The position numbers were made by a program, and so were the translations under genes. From assembly GCA_029210695.1 (NCBI GenBank), contig JARGFH010000018.1:1-62820 (forward strand): 62,820 nucleotides of DNA, read 5' to 3'. Below are positions 7,669 through 58,293 of this stretch, in pieces; position 1 is the first letter of the stretch, and each line of letters opens with the position of its first letter. The notes under the pieces are model-generated. The model was not told where the DNA came from, searched no databases, and worked only from the letters and a program-made list of their open reading frames with translations. Source of the stretch: Acidimicrobiia bacterium. GTDB taxonomy: Bacteria > Actinomycetota > Acidimicrobiia > Spongiisociales > JAHEDJ01.

Positions 7669-7783
7669 GACTTTCTCGGCAATGCAACGGAGTGTCACGG
7701 TTCACAGCATTGCTGAGAAAACTGAGGCGAGTTTCTGCGCAATACAACGACGTGTGGCGGTTCACTGCATTGCTGAGAAAACT
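7669..7783. repeat. Two tandem palindromic repeats, 60-nt period
   Basis: Two copies of an imperfect hairpin lie in the gap between convergent genes. The right arms GCATTGCTGAGAAAACT (7707-7723 and 7767-7783) are identical, and the 8 nt before them differ at one base. Each left arm (CTTTCTCGGCAATGC at 7671; GTTTCTGCGCAATAC at 7731) is roughly complementary to the right arm. The second copy ends on the stop codon of the LCP gene. It could be a bidirectional terminator or a REP/MITE-like mobile palindrome. A 13-nt piece (GAGTTTCTGCGCA) also occurs at 99-111. Confidence 0.75.
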
Positions 7784-8987
7784 AGGGAGTCTCGACGAGC
7801 CCGTTCGTGAGGTCTTCGAAGATCGTGAACGCCTCTTCGTCGAGGCGCACGACGGATGCCGCCCCCGCCGTTCCAACGGTGCCGGGCACGACGATGTTCG
7901 TCAGGGTGAGTGGATTCAGCTCGTAGGCAGAGGCCGCCAGCGTCAAGAGGTCCTCAGGCGACAGATCCGTCCACGTGTATTCGGTCAGAAGTTCGAGCAG
8001 ATGGGGAAGCTCCTCGATGCTCCGCCGTTGCGTCTCAAACAGGGCGGCCTTCATGATCAACCCGTGGTGGAGCTGTCGGGTCAGGTCGCCGCCGGCGATC
8101 GTCCGGTTGCGGGCAAAGGCGAGCGCCCCGGTCCCATCGATGTGCTGTTCGCCTGCATTGAAGTACGCCTTGGACTTCGGTTCGGACATCGCGAACGGAA
8201 TGTCGATCTCAAATCCGCCGAAGGCGTCTACCAGACCCACGAACCCTTTGAACCCGGTGAGGATGTAGCCCTCGAAGTCGAGCCCGGTGAGGATCTCGGC
8301 GGTCTCGACCACGACCTCCGGTCCCCGGGACGCCATCACGTTCGTGAACTTGGCGTTGCCGCCGTAGGAGGCCGCGACCCACGAGTCGCGCGGGATCCCC
8401 ACGATGGCACCGTCCCCGAGTCCCGGAACCGTCGAGACGATGTGAAGGCTGTCGGCCCGGAAGCGCAGGGGGTTCTCGCCCGGCCGCGCGTCGGAACCAA
8501 TGACGAACGCCAGGCGCGGCGTCTTCCCGTACACCGGCGGGGCATCGAACCTACTCAGCCGGGCGCCCACGATTCGCCATTCGCCGTCGTCGACTGCGAG
8601 TACCACATCGTCTCCGGCGGTCACGACGGCGATGGGGGTCTCGAAGATCGTCCCGAGGTAGGCCGTCCCCTCGACCTCGATCGAACGTTGATCGGTGTGA
8701 ACTCCTTCGAGTCCGGCGGCGAGGCTGTCGGCAATAGATCCAGGTGGGGGAGAACTCGGATCCAGAATCCAGGAGTAAAGGGCATCGATAGCAACAGCCA
8801 GTTCGGCAGGTGCGCCCTCGAGAACGACTGTGGCTTCGAGTTCGACGAGCGTCGTGGTAGCTGCCATCGTCGGCGTGGAGGTCGAGGCAATCGCGGTTGA
8901 ACTGGTGGTGGTGCTGGTTTCGGAGCCGCCGCATGCTGAGAGCAAGAGGGCCACGGCCAGCATCACACTGACACGGTGAGGATTCAT
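7782..8987 (-). CDS. LytR-CpsA-Psr (LCP) family lipoprotein
   Basis: 401 aa from ATG 8987, chosen because it places a clean lipoprotein signal at the start, with lipobox LLLSAC (Cys19) and then a Ser/Thr-rich linker. ATG 9008 and 9020 are alternatives. The LCP core is seen in VIGSDARPGENPLRFRADSL (Asp/Arg pyrophosphate-binding motif), IVGIPRDSWV, GFVGLVDAFGGFEID and ALAFARNRT. LCP enzymes attach polymers such as teichoic acids or arabinogalactan to peptidoglycan using polyprenyl-phosphate donors. A lipid anchor instead of the usual N-terminal helix is less common. Confidence 0.85.
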   Translation of the reverse strand: MNPHRVSVMLAVALLLSACGGSETSTTTSSTAIASTSTPTMAATTTLVELEATVVLEGAPAELAVAIDALYSWILDPSSPPPGSIADSLAAGLEGVHTDQRSIEVEGTAYLGTIFETPIAVVTAGDDVVLAVDDGEWRIVGARLSRFDAPPVYGKTPRLAFVIGSDARPGENPLRFRADSLHIVSTVPGLGDGAIVGIPRDSWVAASYGGNAKFTNVMASRGPEVVVETAEILTGLDFEGYILTGFKGFVGLVDAFGGFEIDIPFAMSEPKSKAYFNAGEQHIDGTGALAFARNRTIAGGDLTRQLHHGLIMKAALFETQRRSIEELPHLLELLTEYTWTDLSPEDLLTLAASAYELNPLTLTNIVVPGTVGTAGAASVVRLDEEAFTIFEDLTNGLVETP

Positions 8988-11262: not shown

Positions 11263-12522
11263 ATGGAGATCTCGTTCTTGCGCCACGGAGAGACCGAAGC
11301 GAACGTTGCCGGAATATGGCAAGGGAGCAGACACGGCGGCCGATTGACCGGGCGGGGTGAGGCCCAGGCTCTTGTAGTCGCCGGGCGGATGGGCCGGAGA
11401 CCGTATGACCTCGTCATTACCAGTGGTCTGGATCGAGCCGTCGCCACGGGAGCCGCGCTCAACGTCGAGACGGAGATTGATACGGCGTGGCAGGAGATCG
11501 ATCTCGGGCAATGGGACGGACTGACCTTCTCGGAAATCTCGGAGATCTACGGCGATGAGTTGATGGCGGTAGTGACCGGCCAGCCGGTGCCGATGGGTCG
11601 GACCGGCGAGACGCTGGTCGGCCTTCGGGAGCGACTGCTCGATGGCGTAGAGCGATTGAAGGGCCGGCTGAATGACGATGAGCGGGCGCTCGTGATCACC
11701 CACGGCGGAGTCATCGAGCACCTCGTTCGTCTCCACTGGGGTATCGATACACCGACGCCTCCGTTCGCCGGGCCCGCCAACGCGTCGATCACGACCTTCC
11801 GGCATGCCTTCGGCAAGCTCCGTCTGGCCACCTACAACGACACGGGACACCTCGGGACACTCAACGAATGGGCAAAGGATCGCCTTGCCGGCGGTGATCC
11901 GGTGATCACATTCGTTCGCCACGGCGAAACCAACGCCAACCTCGAACGGCGTGTGCAGGGTCAAACAGACTGGGGTTTGAACGAAAATGGTCGACGCCAG
12001 GCCGACTTGCTCGCCTCCTGGTACGGGAGGCAGGACACGGTCTTCACCTCGCCACTCGGGCGGGCGATCGAAACGGCAGCAGCGGTCGCCGCAGACGGCG
12101 CTACCGAACTAGCCGAGCTCGCCGAATTGTCCTTCGGTTCCTGGGAGGGCAAGACGTTTGACGAGGTGCTGGCGGCTGCCGACGGCGATCTGGCCGATCG
12201 GATCTTTCAACGAGGCGAGGACTTGCCACGGGGTGGTGACGGCGAGACGTGGGCCCAGCTATCCGCGCGGATGACCGCAGGTGTAGTGAAGGCGATCAAC
12301 CATGCCGGGGGATCCCGCCGGATAACGGTCGTCTCGCATGGTGGGTCGATTCGGTCCTATGCACTTGGCAACATGGGGGTGGGCTGGCCGGAGGTTCTCG
12401 ACACCATCGTTCCACCCAACACCGCGATCACGCACGTCGTGATGACGCCGGATGGTCCCATTCTGGCGGACTATGCAGTAGCCGCCCATCTCGAGAGCAA
12501 CCCAGAACCTATAACCTCCTGA
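11263..12522 (+). CDS. Tandem two-domain histidine phosphatase
   Basis: 419 aa made of two complete phosphoglycerate-mutase-like domains. Domain 1 has FLRHGETEAN (His8) and the second catalytic His in ITHGG. Domain 2 has FVRHGETNAN (His about 220) and VSHGG. Single-domain members act as phosphoglycerate mutases, alpha-ribazole phosphatases or sugar-phosphate phosphatases; none can be assigned here. Both domains keep their catalytic histidines, so the duplication looks functional. The next gene starts immediately after the stop. Confidence 0.85.
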   Translation: MEISFLRHGETEANVAGIWQGSRHGGRLTGRGEAQALVVAGRMGRRPYDLVITSGLDRAVATGAALNVETEIDTAWQEIDLGQWDGLTFSEISEIYGDELMAVVTGQPVPMGRTGETLVGLRERLLDGVERLKGRLNDDERALVITHGGVIEHLVRLHWGIDTPTPPFAGPANASITTFRHAFGKLRLATYNDTGHLGTLNEWAKDRLAGGDPVITFVRHGETNANLERRVQGQTDWGLNENGRRQADLLASWYGRQDTVFTSPLGRAIETAAAVAADGATELAELAELSFGSWEGKTFDEVLAAADGDLADRIFQRGEDLPRGGDGETWAQLSARMTAGVVKAINHAGGSRRITVVSHGGSIRSYALGNMGVGWPEVLDTIVPPNTAITHVVMTPDGPILADYAVAAHLESNPEPITS

Positions 12523-17514: not shown

Positions 17515-17623
17515 GGGTTGTGGGTTCTGAGTTCTGGGTTTACTGGTGGTGGCGGGGTCGAATTGTTGGTGCCGGCACTTGACGGTCCGGTGACCTCCAA
17601 CCTAGAACCTATGACCCGGAACT
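17515..17623. repeat. Opposed heptad arrays (head-to-head), topA-MFS gap
   Basis: Left array: four 7-nt units (GGTTGTG, GGTTCTG, AGTTCTG, GGTTTAC; 17516-17543). After about 52 nt comes an array in the opposite orientation (TCCAACC, TAGAACC, TATGACC, CGGAACT; 17596-17623), whose complements read GGTTGGA, GGTTCTA, GGTCATA and AGTTCCG. The two could pair into a long imperfect hairpin. No coding feature explains it. Confidence 0.8.
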
Positions 17624-17668
17624 CCAGACGGCATCCTTTCGCGCCGGGCCCGCGTAGGCCGAGGATGG

Positions 17669-17734
17669 GGTACTACTGGGTACTCGGTACTCGGTACTCG
17701 GTACCAGCTACCAGCTACCAGGTACTAGGTACCC
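17669..17734. repeat. Heptad array GGTACNN, eight contiguous units
   Basis: From 17679 eight consecutive 7-nt units in strict phase: GGTACTC three times, GGTACCA, GCTACCA twice, GGTACTA, GGTACCC. A further GGTACTA lies at 17669, offset by 3 nt. This is the clearest member of the family in the window. It lies in the gap upstream of the MFS gene and is translated only if an improbable upstream start is assumed. Confidence 0.9.
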
Positions 17735-22307: not shown

Positions 22308-22539
22308 GCGGACATGCGATCAGGCAGTCGAGAAGATCTACTACTTCCTCGATGGTGAGATCACGTGGTATCGGCGGTTGCGCATCAATTGGCACCTCCG
22401 GTCGTGCCCGCCGTGCGAAGGAGCCTTTCAATTCGAGAGCAAGTTGCGATCGGTTGTGCGGGAGAAGAGCGCAGAGGAGATTCCCGACGAGCTGATTGAA
22501 CGGCTCCGGCGCGTCTTGCGTGATGAGATGAACAGTTGA
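22300..22539 (+). CDS. Zinc-binding anti-sigma factor, RsrA/RshA type
   Basis: 79 aa. ZAS motif with Cys6 and His32-x3-Cys36-x2-Cys39 (HLRSCPPC), the metal/thiol switch of RsrA that releases SigR on disulfide stress. It is translationally coupled to the sigma gene. Such pairs usually control the thioredoxin and mycothiol systems, fitting an actinobacterial host. The stop codon lies within a heptad array. Confidence 0.92.
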
Positions 22540-22569
22540 CCCGCGACCCGCGACCCGCGACTAGTGTCC
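22535..22569. repeat. Heptad array (CGCGACC units)
   Basis: Units GTTGACC, CGCGACC, CGCGACC, CGCGACT and AGTGTCC follow in 7-nt phase; their complements fit GGTNNNN. The array contains the anti-sigma stop codon and ends 5 nt before the next ATG. Confidence 0.75.
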
Positions 22570-22574
22570 CCGCC

Positions 22575-22850
22575 ATGTCGAACAACGGTCGTCGTATTGT
22601 TTTGCCCCTGCTGGTTTTCACCGCGGTCATGCTGATTGCACCGGCCGCGCTGGCCGTTGTTGATGTGGTCGCCCAGGGCGACGTCCCTGCGATCCAGGTC
22701 CCCGAACCGGCCCCATCCAACGACCTCCCCTCCTGGACCTACCGCTATCTCATTCCCACCTTGTTGGTCGTGGCGGTTCTCGTCATCGTGCTGACGGTGG
22801 TGCAGTACTTCGTCAGGGTGGTCGGCAAGCGGTACCGCGTCGTACGATGA
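22575..22850 (+). CDS. Small membrane protein of unknown function
   Basis: 91 aa. It has a signal-like hydrophobic N-terminus (IVLPLLVFTAVMLIAPAALA, possible cleavage after ALA), an exposed acidic/Pro loop and a second membrane segment near residues 57-80 (LIPTLLVVAVLVIVLTVVQY), then a basic tail VGKRYRVVR. The stop overlaps the next gene by 4 nt, so it is co-expressed with DUF2342. There is no ribosome site before ATG 22575. I do not recognise a family. Confidence 0.7.
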   Translation: MSNNGRRIVLPLLVFTAVMLIAPAALAVVDVVAQGDVPAIQVPEPAPSNDLPSWTYRYLIPTLLVVAVLVIVLTVVQYFVRVVGKRYRVVR

Positions 22851-34057: not shown

Positions 34058-34113
34058 CGGCCGGCATTTGGCCACGGGCAGACGGTCGTTCACCGGCGGA
34101 TTCTCCCACTACT

Positions 34114-34155
34114 GGTACCAGCTGCCGGGTACCGGCTACTCGGTTCCGGGTACCA
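34114..34155. repeat. Heptad array immediately upstream of lysS
   Basis: Six units in exact 7-nt phase: GGTACCA, GCTGCCG, GGTACCG, GCTACTC, GGTTCCG, GGTACCA. It ends 9 nt before the lysS ATG and occupies the place of a ribosome binding site. Confidence 0.85.
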
Positions 34156-34164: not shown

Positions 34165-35694
34165 ATGACTGACGACCCCACCCACCTCGGAAGTGCCGAA
34201 GTCCCGGACGAGGCCGGCCTCGCTGCGCATCCGATCACGGCGCGCCGTCTCGAGAAGCTCGGCGAGATCCGGGCTGCTGGCGGGGAGCCGTATGCCTACC
34301 GGTTCGAACGCACGGCGCTGGCCGCGGACCTCCATGCTGAATATGGAGAACTGGAACCGGGAGTCGAGACGGGTAAGACCGTGGCGGTGGCGGGTCGCGT
34401 TCTCAATGTCCGCAGCTTCGGCAAGCTCATGTTCCCGGTCGTTCTCGATCGGACCGGTCGAATCCAGCTGTTCGTTGCCAGAGACACGCTCGGGCAAGAG
34501 GAGTTCGATCGGTTCGCCGAGGTCGACGGAGGGGATTGGATCGGAGTCGAGGGCGAGATAATCACGACCAAGAAGGGTGAGCTGAGCATCCGCGTTCGGT
34601 CGTGGACCATGCTCTCGAAGTCGCTTCGCCCGTTGCCTGAGAAGTGGCACGGACTCAAAGACGTGGAGCGCCGCTACCGGCAGCGCTACCTCGATCTCAT
34701 CACCAGTGAGCAGGCCCGTGCTGTCGCACTCACGCGGGTCCAGATCATTGCCGAACTTCGCAAGCAGTTCACCGACCGAGGCTACGTCGAGGTCGAGACC
34801 CCGGTTCTGCAGGCGCAGGCAGGCGGAGCGCTGGCGCGGCCCTTCGCAACTCATCACAACGCCCTCGATGTGGACATGTACCTCCGCATTGCCACCGAGT
34901 TGCATCTCAAACGACTGGTAGTCGGCGGCATCGAACGGGTCTTCGAACTCGGCCGCATCTTTCGCAATGAAGGCGTCGACACCACGCACAACCCGGAGTT
35001 CACGACTTTGGAGGCCTACGAAGCCTTCGCAGACTACGGCGACATCATGGAGCTGATGGAACAAGTGATCGGTGCCGTTGCCGAAGCAGCGACGGGCTCG
35101 AGTCTGATCGAGTACGACGGAAAGCCGATTGACCTCACCCCACCGTACCGGCGCGCAACGCTGCTCGATCTTCTTGCAGAAGCGATCGGGCAACCGGTCG
35201 GGTTCGATTGGTCGTTGGAGCAACTGCGGGAACTGGCTGCCGGTAGGGGAATCACGCCGGAGGGAGGCTGGGGGAAGGGCAAGATCATCGCTGAGCTCTA
35301 TGAACACCTCGTTGAACCGGGTCTCTGGGATCCGGTTTTTGTGATCGACCACCCGAAGGAGACTTCGCCACTGGCCAGGATCCATCGCAACGATCCGAAT
35401 CTCACCGAGCGGTTTGAGCTGTTCGCGGGCGGGATGGAACTCTGCAATGCCTTCTCGGAGCTGATCGATCCCATCGATCAGCGGGACCGATTCGAGCAGC
35501 AGGCCCTGGCCAAAGCAGCCGGTGACGACGAGGCGCATCCGATCGACGAGGACTTTGTTCGTGCCCTGGAATATGGGATGCCTCCCACCGGCGGCCTCGG
35601 TATCGGCGTCGACCGCCTGGTCATGTTGCTCACCGACCAGACGACCATCCGCGAGGTCCTGTTGTTCCCGCACTTGAGGCCGGAGCAGCCCTAG
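34165..35694 (+). CDS. lysS: Lysyl-tRNA synthetase, class II
   Basis: 509 aa. An N-terminal OB fold (VAVAGRVLNVRSFGKLMFPV) is followed by a class II core with motif 1 FTDRGYVEVETPVL, motif 2 FELGRIFRNEGVDTTHNPEFT and motif 3 GGLGIGVDRLVMLL. Heptad arrays with different units flank the gene. Standard length; a LysRS without extra membrane domain. Confidence 0.97.
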   Translation: MTDDPTHLGSAEVPDEAGLAAHPITARRLEKLGEIRAAGGEPYAYRFERTALAADLHAEYGELEPGVETGKTVAVAGRVLNVRSFGKLMFPVVLDRTGRIQLFVARDTLGQEEFDRFAEVDGGDWIGVEGEIITTKKGELSIRVRSWTMLSKSLRPLPEKWHGLKDVERRYRQRYLDLITSEQARAVALTRVQIIAELRKQFTDRGYVEVETPVLQAQAGGALARPFATHHNALDVDMYLRIATELHLKRLVVGGIERVFELGRIFRNEGVDTTHNPEFTTLEAYEAFADYGDIMELMEQVIGAVAEAATGSSLIEYDGKPIDLTPPYRRATLLDLLAEAIGQPVGFDWSLEQLRELAAGRGITPEGGWGKGKIIAELYEHLVEPGLWDPVFVIDHPKETSPLARIHRNDPNLTERFELFAGGMELCNAFSELIDPIDQRDRFEQQALAKAAGDDEAHPIDEDFVRALEYGMPPTGGLGIGVDRLVMLLTDQTTIREVLLFPHLRPEQP

Positions 35695-35696
35695 CA

Positions 35697-35731
35697 GGCC
35701 TATGGCCTATGGCCCATGGCCTATGACCCAC
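35697..35731. repeat. Heptad array downstream of lysS
   Basis: GGCCTAT, GGCCTAT, GGCCCAT, GGCCTAT, GACCCAC in strict 7-nt phase, starting 2 nt after the lysS stop. Read on the other strand the units are GGCCATA/GGTCATA types, i.e. opposite to the array before lysS. Confidence 0.85.
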
Positions 35732-44921: not shown

Positions 44922-47417
44922 TTGTTCGAACGCTTTACTGATCGGGCCCGAAGAGTTGTGGTGCTTGCACAGGAGGAGGCGCGCCTCCTCAATCACAACT
45001 ACATCGGCACCGAGCACATCTTGCTTGGCCTCATCCATGAAGGTGAGGGCGTTGCGGCCCGCGCCCTGGAGAGTCTGGGCATCAACCTCGACTCCGTCCG
45101 CCAGCAGGTGGTCGAGATCATCGGGCAGGGTCAGCAGGCGCCGAGCGGGCACATTCCGTTCACGCCCCGCGCTAAGAAGGTTCTCGAGCTGAGTCTGCGC
45201 GAGGCGCTTCAACTCGGCCACAACTACATAGGTACAGAGCACATTCTGCTGGGACTCATCCGGGAGGGTGAGGGGGTTGCCGCTCAGGTTCTACAGAAAC
45301 TCGGCGCAGATCTCCCGAAGGTTCGTCAAACCGTCATTCAGCTGCTGTCCGGAGTTCAGGGCGATGATCAGCCGTCTGGCCCCTCATCCGCCAAGGGCCG
45401 GGCCGAGCAACCGACGGGTGGATCGACGATCCTCGATCAGTTCGGAAGGAATCTCACCCAGTCTGCTCGTGAGCAGAAGCTCGATCCCGTGATCGGCCGC
45501 CAGACCGAGATCGAGCGAGTCATGCAGATTCTGTCCAGGCGGACCAAAAACAACCCGGTCTTGGTGGGAGAGCCCGGAGTTGGCAAAACGGCCATCGTGG
45601 AAGGCCTCGCCCAGCGTATCGTCGCCGGCGATGTCCCGGATACCTTGACGAACAAGCAGCTCTACACGCTCGACCTGGGCTCGCTCGTGGCAGGCTCGCG
45701 CTATCGGGGTGACTTCGAAGAGCGTCTCAAGAAGGTGCTGAAGGAGATTCGGACCCGGGGCGACATCGTCCTGTTCATCGACGAGATTCACACCCTGGTT
45801 GGAGCGGGCGCCGCAGAAGGCGCCATCGACGCGGCGAGCATTCTGAAGCCGATGCTGGCTCGCGGCGAACTGCAGACCGTCGGCGCCACCACGCTCGAGG
45901 AGTACCGCAAGTACCTGGAGAAGGACTCTGCACTCGAGCGACGATTCCAGCCGGTTAAGGTCGAGGAACCAACGGTGGCCGATACCATTCAGATTCTGCA
46001 CGGCCTTCGGGATCGGTATGAAGCGCACCACAAGGTGCGATTCACCGACCAGGCGCTCGTGAATGCCGCCAACCTGGCGGATCGCTATCTCGCCGATCGG
46101 TTCCTCCCGGACAAAGCCATAGACCTCATCGACGAGGCCGGCAGCCGCATGCGAATCCAGCGAAAAGGCAGCATGCCTGAGCTCGAGGATCTCGACGATC
46201 GTATCTTCGAAGTGCGGTCTTCCAAGTTGGAGGCCGTCCAGTCGCAGCAGTACGAACGGGCTGCCCAGCTCCGCGATCAGGAACGGAGCCTCACTTCAGA
46301 TCGTATGGAACATGAGCGCGAAGCGAGCGAGTCCGGCATCCAATCAACCTGGGTGATCGACGAAGAAGAAATCGCCGAGGTGCTGGCGCAATGGACGGGT
46401 ATCCCGGTGCACCGTCTGACCGAGGAGGAAACCGCCCGGCTGGTCCGCATGGAAGACGAGCTCCACAAGCGAATCATTGGTCAGCACGACGCCATCGGCG
46501 CGGTGAGCCGGGCCATCCGCAGGACCCGGGCCGGGCTCAAGGATCCGAAGCGTCCGGCCGGGTCGTTCATCTTCCTCGGGCCATCCGGCGTCGGCAAGAC
46601 CGAGACTGCCAAAGCGCTGGCCGAGTTCCTGTTCGGTGATGAGGCCGCCCTCATCCAACTCGACATGTCGGAGTACATGGAGAAGCACACTGTGAGCCGG
46701 TTGGTCGGTTCGCCTCCCGGGTACGTTGGCTACGATGAAGGTGGGCAGCTCACCGAAGCGGTCCGGCGCAAGCCATTTTCTGTCGTGCTCTTCGACGAGA
46801 TCGAGAAAGCCCACCCGGATGTCTTCAACACACTGCTCCAGATTCTCGAGGACGGCCGGCTGACCGACGCCCAGGGTCGGACGGTCGACTTCAAGAACAC
46901 GGTCATCATCATGACCTCCAACCTGGGTACCTCCGAGCTGCGGAAGAAGGCGGTCGGGTTCCACAAGGGAAACGAAGAGGTCACATACGAGTACATGAAG
47001 GAGCGCGTGACCGAGGCGCTCAAGAAGAACTTCCGTCCGGAGTTCCTCAACCGCATCGACGAAGTGATCGTGTTCCACGAGCTTCGCAAGGATGAGGTCA
47101 AGGAGATCGTCGATCTCATGCTGGCGAGAGTCCATCAACAGTTGAAGTCACAGAGCCTTCAACTGGCGTTGTCGGATGCCGCCAAAGGTTTCCTCGCAGA
47201 CAAGGGATACGATCCGGAGCTTGGTGCCCGGCCGTTGCGCCGAGCCATACAGCGGCGCCTCGAAGATGCCCTGTCGGAACGGGTCCTGCTCGGCTCCTTC
47301 AAGGCCGGGACCACCATCGTCGTGGACGTCGACACCGAAACCGACGAGCTCACCTTTGAGGAAGTCGAAGCTCCCGATCAACCGCCTGTGGTGCTGGCCG
47401 AGTCACAAGACTCCTAA
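44922..47417 (+). CDS. clpC: ATP-dependent Clp protease ATPase subunit ClpC
   Basis: 831 aa. Two Clp_N repeats (each with [13 protein letters not shown]), AAA1 with GEPGVGKT and [18 protein letters not shown], a UVR-like middle segment ([15 protein letters not shown]), AAA2 with GPSGVGKTE and [12 protein letters not shown], and the C-terminal D2 small domain. It unfolds substrates for ClpP. The start is TTG 44922 ([10 protein letters not shown]), the standard ClpC N-terminus, with AGGAGG 10 nt upstream. Confidence 0.97.
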
Positions 47418-47419
47418 GA

Positions 47420-47523
47420 GGTTCTAGGTTCGAGGTTCTAGGTCAGTTGCCTGTCACCTTTCTTCGCCAATCGGTGCTTCCAGCACGAAAGTACCTAGAA
47501 CTCATGACCTAGTACCCGGAGAC
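47420..47523. repeat. Opposed heptad arrays downstream of clpC
   Basis: Left: GGTTCTA, GGTTCGA, GGTTCTA, GGTCAGT (47420-47447). Right, opposite orientation after about 41 nt: AAGTACC, TAGAACT, CATGACC, TAGTACC, CGGAGAC (47489-47523). All are in 7-nt phase. Pairing of the arms would make a large imperfect hairpin directly after the clpC stop. Confidence 0.85.
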
Positions 47524-53641: not shown

Positions 53642-53723
53642 GGTAATCGGATATGGGTTGTAGGTTCTTCCGGCGAGAACACCTGGCGGTTTGGGCACGA
53701 CCCACTACCTAGAACCTAGAACT
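53642..53723. repeat. Opposed heptad arrays downstream of the ABC operon
   Basis: Left: GGTAATC, GGATATG, GGTTGTA, GGTTCTT (53642-53669). Right, opposite orientation after 26 nt: CACGACC, CACTACC, TAGAACC, TAGAACT (53696-53723). Exact 7-nt phase. It is followed at once by a perfect hairpin. Confidence 0.85.
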
Positions 53724-53728
53724 CTGAA

Positions 53729-53755
53729 GGGGCGTTGAGCGGTGCTCAACGCCCC
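53729..53755. terminator. Perfect hairpin between convergent genes
   Basis: A 12-bp perfect stem GGGGCGTTGAGC with a 3-nt loop GGT. It overlaps the last codons of the minus-strand zinc-ribbon gene and follows the ABC operon, so it may stop transcription from both sides. No U-tract. Confidence 0.7.
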
Positions 53756-57426: not shown

Positions 57427-58293
57427 ATGGCCACGAAGAAACCCGCATCCGCAAAGAAACCTGCCGCCCCCAAGACGGCGACCGCTAAGAAGTCTGCGGC
57501 GAAGAAGCCTGCTGCCAAGGCGGCTGCGGCGAAGAAACCTGCTGCCAAGAAGCCTGCTGCGAAGACGGCTGCGGCGAAGAAACCTGCTGCCAAGAAGCCT
57601 GCTGCCAAGACGGCTGCAGCGAAGAAACCTGCTGCGAAGAAACCCGCGGCGAGGAAGCCGGCCGCCAAGGCCGAGCTGAGGCCGGCGGTGCTGAAGAAGC
57701 CCATTGCGAAGCGACCTGTTGCCGGCCAGCCTGATGCCACGGCCGATGCGGCGAGCGCTCCGGCCGCCAAACCTGCCCCTCGTCGCAAGAGGCCGTCGCC
57801 ATTCGGCCTGGGCGACAAGGTTGTGCACCCTCACCACGGTGCCGCGATCATCACCAAGAAGGTCAAGCAGGTGGTGGCGGGGGAGAAGCGTGACTACTTC
57901 GTACTCGAGATTGCCACCGACCAACTCACGGTTTTCGTGCCGGTCGACAACATCGAAGACACCATCCGCCCCGTCATCTCCAAGGCTGCCGCAGGGCGGG
58001 TGTTCAAGCTCTTCAAGGAGGAGCCCCAGGAAGCGGGCAGCAACTGGTCTCGCTGGTACAAAGTACTCAACGAGAAGATGACCAGTGGTGACATCTATCA
58101 GGTTGCCGAGGTCGTTCGTGACCTCACGTTCGCTCAGCAGACGAAGGGCATTTCGCCTGCCCTCAAACGCATGTTGAGCAAAGCCAGGCTAACCCTCACC
58201 AGCGAGCTTCAGTTCGCTTTGGCAATCGACGATGAAGAGGCAACGAAGAAACTCGATAGGGCACTACCCAAGGTCGAGATCGAAGAGAGCTAA
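57427..58293 (+). CDS. carD: CarD/CdnL-family RNA polymerase-binding protein with histone-H1-like N-terminal tail
   Basis: 288 aa, nearly twice normal CarD. Residues 1 to about 125 are Lys/Ala/Pro repeats (AAAKKPAAKKPAAKT units), like the tails of histone H1/HU-type proteins. The CarD domain begins FGLGDKVVHPHHGAAIITKK (RNAP beta-binding Tudor-like fold) and ends in the helical DNA-binding part with NWSRWYKVLNEKM and DIYQVAEVVRDL. The tail probably binds DNA nonspecifically. ATG 57427 is preferred over GTG 57421. TACACT at 57396 is a plausible -10. Confidence 0.92.
   Translation: MATKKPASAKKPAAPKTATAKKSAAKKPAAKAAAAKKPAAKKPAAKTAAAKKPAAKKPAAKTAAAKKPAAKKPAARKPAAKAELRPAVLKKPIAKRPVAGQPDATADAASAPAAKPAPRRKRPSPFGLGDKVVHPHHGAAIITKKVKQVVAGEKRDYFVLEIATDQLTVFVPVDNIEDTIRPVISKAAAGRVFKLFKEEPQEAGSNWSRWYKVLNEKMTSGDIYQVAEVVRDLTFAQQTKGISPALKRMLSKARLTLTSELQFALAIDDEEATKKLDRALPKVEIEES
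57523..57657 (+). repeat. 45-nt tandem repeat in the carD tail
   Basis: Three in-frame 45-nt copies each encode the 15-residue unit AAAKKPAAKKPAAKT, the last ending RK. Purely coding low-complexity repeat, prone to copy-number change. Confidence 0.9.

Follow-up and report, generated by a model that had tools for sequence, protein, structure and literature searches.

Intergenic heptameric arrays with an RGYNNYN unit at gene edges in an Acidimicrobiia genome

Known heptameric repeats and the present arrays

The STRR heptamers of cyanobacteria are fixed units. The arrays reported here resemble them in being tandem heptamers; the STRR of Calothrix appear among the works cited in a study of Xanthomonas and Nostoc (Rehm et al. 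2015; PMC4692102). That study describes heptameric repeats of the form GGGNATC / GGGGA(C/T)T, which occur in many copies and are mostly intergenic. Their G strand points outward from the nearest ORF, being the coding strand downstream of stops and the non-coding strand upstream of starts, and the repeats lie nearer to the 5' neighbouring ORF. Some overlap the stop codon, their length varies between species, and each Xanthomonas genome has approximately 70 convergent inverted pairs, with few in divergent spacers. A quadruplex was proposed for them, quadruplex formation in vitro and transcription are among their attributes, and increased genomic stability of their neighbourhoods was claimed (PMC4692102). 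A second system, the TAACTGA heptamers of Beggiatoaceae, cyanobacteria and Bacteroidetes, consists of one fixed intergenic unit, placed mostly just upstream of start codons and with no known mechanism (MacGregor 2015; PMC4679880).

Here we analyse arrays found in a stretch of 62,820 nucleotides (the window) from an Acidimicrobiia bacterium whose genome is a 3.9-Mb draft in 181 contigs; the genomes with which we compare it are drafts as well. Its WhiB genes assign the genome to Actinomycetota. With the GGGNATC repeats these arrays share the 7-nt tandem unit, the intergenic excess, the outward polarity, the convergent pairs, the stop-codon overlap and the scarcity in divergent spacers (PMC4692102). 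Whereas the published unit has a GGG tract and conserves positions 1-4 and 6, however, the core here is RGY, with the second G (G2) and the pyrimidine (Y3) conserved and a mismatch of 0.22 at the first G (G1). Moreover, several unit families coexist here and replace one another at a single site, the quadruplex is not the favoured explanation, and the phylum is Actinomycetota. The resemblance to TAACTGA lies in the heptameric, intergenic unit and in its scatter among unrelated phyla (PMC4679880), but the units here are degenerate, are found mainly after stops, and do not include TAACTGA among their consensus sequences.

The exact unit of one of the main families, GGTTCTR, also forms arrays in Shewanella, Vibrio, Pseudoalteromonas, Geobacter, Chloroflexota, Planctomycetota, Bacteroidota and others (loci L071-L189), and we located no paper on these in the open-licence literature searched. 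They often lie near gene ends and often adjoin other heptamer runs; their outward polarity is weaker (40 versus 20 within 60 nt). One unit makes up nearly all of them, and its positions drift almost evenly, but the search was itself conditioned on that unit. In the phylum of our genome, only three of 396 sampled genomes carry GGTTCTR arrays.

The preliminary description of the window had presented its arrays as a new family. In that form the claim is too broad, since intergenic arrays of heptamers that obey the same rules of position and polarity have been published (PMC4692102), as has TAACTGA (PMC4679880). What survives is narrower: the open-licence literature searched contains no report of heptamer arrays in Actinomycetota, and subscription journals may contain an earlier one. 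Thus the kind of array is already known, and the RGYNNYN grammar and the actinobacterial occurrence appear, within that literature, to be undescribed.

Arrays in the window, in the genome and in related species

The arrays of the window are collected in Table 1. Of the eight GGYNNNN units originally listed at 17679-17734, six have that form and two read GCTACCA. The recurrence reported for other sites is borne out at 22535, 35697, 47420-47516 and 53696-53723, but it is weak at 34113-34154 and in the left arm at 53642-53669.

Table 1. Heptameric arrays of the window, with overlapping period-7 arrays called by TRF. Positions are those of the window.
Positions	Strand	Units	Context	TRF
12500..12517	-	remnant C-arm	complete head-to-head pair at G001 site	
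17516..17543	+	G-arm GGTTGTG GGTTCTG AGTTCTG GGTTTAC	head-to-head pair; divergent spacer, topA / MFS gene	
17589..17630	- (G strand on minus)	C-arm CGTCTGG AGTTCCG GGTCATA GGTTCTA GGTTGGA GGTCACC		
17679..17734	+	GGTACTC x3, GGTACCA, GCTACCA x2, GGTACTA, GGTACCC; 8 contiguous units		17674-17704, 17702-17733
22535..22561	-	GGTCGCG-family array, 3-4 units	upstream of gene at 22575	22538-22561
34113..34154	-	degenerate, weak GGTACC-type array	before class II tRNA synthetase gene 34165-35694	
35697..35724	.	(GGCCTAT)4 = GGCCATA on other strand	abuts stop of 34165-35694	35697-35725
47420..47447	+	G-arm	3 nt past stop of ClpC-like gene 44922-47417	47419-47443
47489..47516	-	C-arm GGTACTA GGTCATG AGTTCTA GGTACTT	head-to-head partner of 47420 G-arm	
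53642..53669	+	weak G-arm	convergent spacer	
53696..53723	-	C-arm	convergent spacer common with 53642 G-arm	53707-53722

The array at 35697-35724 can be read as GGY units from both strands (GGCCTAT, GGCCATA), and an ordinary terminator-like hairpin follows the last C-arm at approximately 53729-53755. An Rfam search of the window returned two tRNAs and nothing else. The window contains other repeats as well: a 60-bp unit stands in two tandem copies in the spacer at 7672-7790, both conserved in genome G001 and neither forming a heptamer array, and coding 15-nt repeats at 57436-57669 give a lysine- and alanine-rich (AKKPAA-like) protein tail.

Seven in-phase GGY runs of at least four units are present in the window, compared with 1.2 per second-order Markov shuffle, while runs of at least three units (25 versus 16.7 shuffled) are near chance. 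The excess is therefore modest when judged from the window alone, and it is the genome-wide data that settle the reality of the arrays. Across its own genome, a pattern of five in-phase GGY units has 96 matches, as against 36 for the reversed control pattern, and all four congeners are array-rich too. In a sample of 835 kb of this genome, partly picked for arrays and with genes assigned by a simple home-made codon-usage caller, self-similarity at lag 7 yields 45 intergenic and three coding arrays, in agreement with the intergenic location first proposed. No other period from 4 to 13 gives more than two intergenic arrays in the sample, so that 7 is the only enriched short period; beyond it we find echoes at its multiples, a few period-15 repeats and nothing else prominent. 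The less biased subset of contigs C1-C5 (460 kb) contains 17 period-7 arrays and at most one at other periods. Intergenic arrays that score at least 13.5 number 35, versus none in third-order Markov intergenic DNA. Thus the arrays are in phase, exceed composition-matched chance and extend beyond the window, as the preliminary description had supposed; neither random-level frequency nor absence outside the window, which it named as grounds for refutation, was found.

Array lengths and counts are underestimates, because long arrays break assemblies: at locus L064 (12407-12503), (GGCTCAC)12 ends in an N gap. At L059 (6674-6907) a composite block of approximately 103 bp, which joins a GGTTCTA-type C-arm to a GGCAGTA-type array, is tandemly duplicated, and whole array modules thus duplicate as well. 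The arrays do not behave as a mobile element of the REP/BIME or MITE kind, in that flanks and loops are non-homologous between loci, except for the short edges of GGCAATT arrays. Another intergenic repeat is also dispersed: CGACTCGGCACCTCCCCCGC(TTTC)AGCGGGGGAGGAACGC, a palindrome inside a longer conserved block, was seen at L051 16300-16500, L052 17440-17560, L053 6420-6560 and L058 15503-16104, and also on contig C21 of G001.

Genome G001 shares synteny with the window, with approximately 90% identity. At orthologous sites the unit family, the copy number and the pairing all turn over, and yet these sites carry arrays in one species after another. The four GGCCATA units at 35697 correspond to about ten GGCAATA units in G001, a comparison in which non-homologous DNA adjoins the array; the head-to-head pair at 47420 corresponds to (GGTTCTA)9. 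The 17516/17589 pair is retained in G001 and G002 and is represented by GGC-type units in G003, and the period of 7 at 22535 is partly retained in G003 and G002. Length differences, which are between species and not between strains, amount to 21 nt (three units, G001 being the shorter) at 34113, 7 nt at C15:38874 and 31 nt (28+3) at 17679, with other sites mixed. At 17679, G001 has approximately four units, about four fewer than the window's eight. The MFS ORF may extend further upstream, and would then overlap this array; the array differs in length by 31 nt from its orthologue, however, and so is not coding in both species. Array-bearing spacers also diverge faster than others, with a median identity of 0.61 versus 0.84 (P=0.003), which, for only 11 array spacers against 80, runs contrary to the stability claimed for the neighbourhoods of GGGNATC repeats (PMC4692102).

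Unit grammar, placement and polarity

The unit was at first written GGYNNNN. The heptamer and its core stand, but the first G is not conserved, and the form is better given as RGYNNYN. Mismatches between adjacent units at positions 1-7 are 0.22, 0.066, 0.086, 0.26, 0.32, 0.22 and 0.34, and in 300 trials of a permuted-column null the mismatch at position 2 never fell below 0.117. Thus phase is kept while bases drift, as had been noticed in the window, and positions 2 and 3 are constrained (0.066 and 0.086, versus 0.22-0.34 elsewhere). Mutational context does not explain this constraint, since the between-species mutation of G across the genome differs only slightly between the RGY and RGR contexts (0.076 versus 0.098, or about 20% less). 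The coexisting families include GGTTCTA/G, GGCAATT, GGCAATA/GGCAGTA/GGCCATA, GGTCGCG/AGTCGCG, GGTACTA and others, and most of them lie one base from another family.

The same specificity is seen in the shortest repeats. Intergenic DNA contains 65 exact two-copy tandem duplications of 6 nt, 60 of 7 nt and three of 8 nt. RGYNNY units account for the surplus among those of 7 nt, while non-RGYNNY 7-nt duplications are at background (10 found, about 10 expected). All 26 tandem arrays with at least three exact copies are RGYNNY. Among exact units in at least three copies, the form fits 23 of 23 in the genome itself, 7 of 7 in G001 and 26 of 31 in G003, where chance would give a fraction of about 0.45-0.46. 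Outside the family it fits all nine such units of G010 and 11 of 22 in G011 (family f8), where the grammar fails. The 7-nt step therefore extends more widely than the grammar, which is lineage-specific. Of 59 genomes of the order, 30 contain six-unit RGYNNYN runs; these are present in all five genomes of family f1 and in none of the genomes sampled from f3 and f5, two of the eight families sampled. In some genomes of the order the reversed control has more matches than the pattern itself, which indicates that other grammars exist there.

The preliminary description had proposed mapping the arrays to gene ends. Of 81 arrays, 34 have a stop no more than 15 nt away, whereas random intergenic placement predicts 8.0 (sd 2.7) and shuffling within the same spacer 18.6 (sd 3.0). 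Arrays are over-represented in convergent spacers (26, with 12 expected) and under-represented in divergent ones (11, with 21.5 expected). Several GTCGC-family arrays (L036, L053, L061, L236) have a TGA stop as their exact starting point, and the stop is in register with the unit. We considered whether stop codons seed the unit and rejected this as a general account; GGT-type arrays past stops stand in mixed phases.

Polarity follows the gene edge. The G strand runs outward from the nearest gene in 50 cases versus 11 within 60 nt of stops, and in 12 versus 2 near starts; near-stop arrays have the G strand sense by 32:8, a stop-side bias that may be inflated by TAG-containing units ending ORFs that read into them, while the start side is free of this effect. 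Neighbouring arrays are head-to-head in 29 cases and tail-to-tail in four, with non-homologous loops, and the head-to-head pairs are found in co-directional, divergent and convergent spacers alike. The outward rule is not universal in the order, for G010, of another family, does not display it (1 versus 7 near stops). We saw no functional theme among the genes that flank arrays.

Origin of the arrays

We read the arrays, tentatively and at somewhat less than an even chance, as heptameric minisatellites made by a unit-specific, slippage-like process that is anchored on RGY and filtered by selection at gene edges. Slippage-like copying on 7-nt RGY-anchored units (RGYNNYN) would create, lengthen and shorten arrays; the remaining positions would drift, and further slippage would homogenise the units within an array. 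Arrays would survive where selection permits, directly past gene ends and mostly past stops, with the G strand outward. The anchor would be enforced by the copying itself and not by a bound protein, and the polarity rule would be made by selection against the opposite polarity. The reading draws on the restriction of the excess to period 7 and to RGYNNY units, the constraint on G2 and Y3, the only slightly lower mutation of the RGY context, the turnover of unit and copy number between species about 90% identical, the faster divergence of array-bearing spacers, the bias towards convergent spacers and the outward polarity. Polarity is nevertheless where the model is weakest, because slippage alone predicts neither the outward orientation nor the head-to-head excess of 29:4, and the model does not explain the preference for an RGY anchor or for exactly 7 nt. 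The search for responsible genes also counts against it: among Ku, reverse transcriptase (RVT_1), NucS, MutS and Y-family polymerases, none tracks arrays in 30 genomes. As MutS is absent from 29 of the 30, its lack is at most permissive. Reverse transcriptase has three matches in the source genome (contigs C6, C7 and C70) and none in the four congeners.

Slippage of heptamers without any sequence preference, with arrays persisting where indels are harmless, would account for heptamer runs in unrelated phyla and for the gene-end and convergent bias, and a polymerase footprint is among the ideas cited for heptamer slippage in PMC4692102. The background level of non-RGYNNY duplications, the absence of off-grammar units from the 26 arrays of at least three copies, and the unexplained polarity make it quite improbable. 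It is possible, but doubtful, that the arrays are instead a functional gene-edge element, in which a DNA- or RNA-binding factor reads GY every 7 nt, or G-rich RNA transcribed beyond the stop helps with termination or with the fate of the mRNA 3' end, and selection keeps core and orientation. The concentration at stops beyond both placement nulls, the sense bias there, the constrained GY core and the continued occupation of sites across species all suit such an element. Yet orthologous sites differ in unit family, copy number and pairing, two of the eight sampled families of the order lack six-unit arrays, the flanking genes have no common function, and the near-stop polarity could partly reflect TAG-containing units that end called ORFs. 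Two more specific functions are less credible. G-quadruplexes, as proposed for GGGNATC in Xanthomonas and Nostoc, would suit the many arrays with four GG tracts at 7-nt spacing and the position and polarity shared with the published repeats; they need both Gs, however, and G1 drifts like the unconstrained positions (0.22) where G2 does not, while part of the GTCGC family (AGTCGCG) has no GG tract, so that we consider them very improbable. Scarcely credible is the remaining proposal, of all-frame stop-codon arrays or of RNA stem-loops formed by head-to-head pairs. Since 7 equals 1 modulo 3, TAG-containing units do stop every frame, and T-family pairs do fold into long imperfect hairpins; but TAG occupies positions 6, 7 and 1, all of which drift, no stop is present in the GGCAATT and GTCGC families, and the arms do not covary (identity 0.476 within pairs versus 0.444 between pairs, P=0.16).

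The polarity that slippage leaves unexplained would follow if the arrays were scars of broken-end healing, in which heptamers are added to 3' ends at double-strand breaks that are then joined, giving outward G strands with a unique loop between them. The head-to-head excess with non-homologous loops, the outward polarity at both stops and starts, and the non-homologous DNA that adjoins the 35697 array agree with this picture, but array ends show no 5'-to-3' gradient of degeneracy (37 versus 36), and neither Ku nor reverse transcriptase tracks the arrays; we regard it as no less improbable than unspecific slippage. Directional growth of arrays was rejected on the same balance of degenerate units (37 versus 36, partial units not counted). 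A broader proposal, which we think unlikely, is that a trans-acting, heptamer-specific copying or end-healing activity, patchy among bacteria, writes arrays outward from gene edges, with a grammar set by lineage (RGYNNYN here, GGGANTN in Xanthomonas, GGTTCTR in gammaproteobacteria) and with the 7-nt step and the outward polarity shared.

Heptamer arrays have until now been known as oddities of a few genera. In this actinobacterial genus they follow a common rule, namely a 7-nt register, a lineage-specific core, an outward G strand and placement at gene edges. Because this rule matches the one published for Xanthomonas and Nostoc, a common cause is plausible and can be tested, and the patchy presence of arrays within the order, with arrays in all five f1 genomes and none in the sampled genomes of f3 and f5, offers a route to the responsible gene through comparison of gene content.
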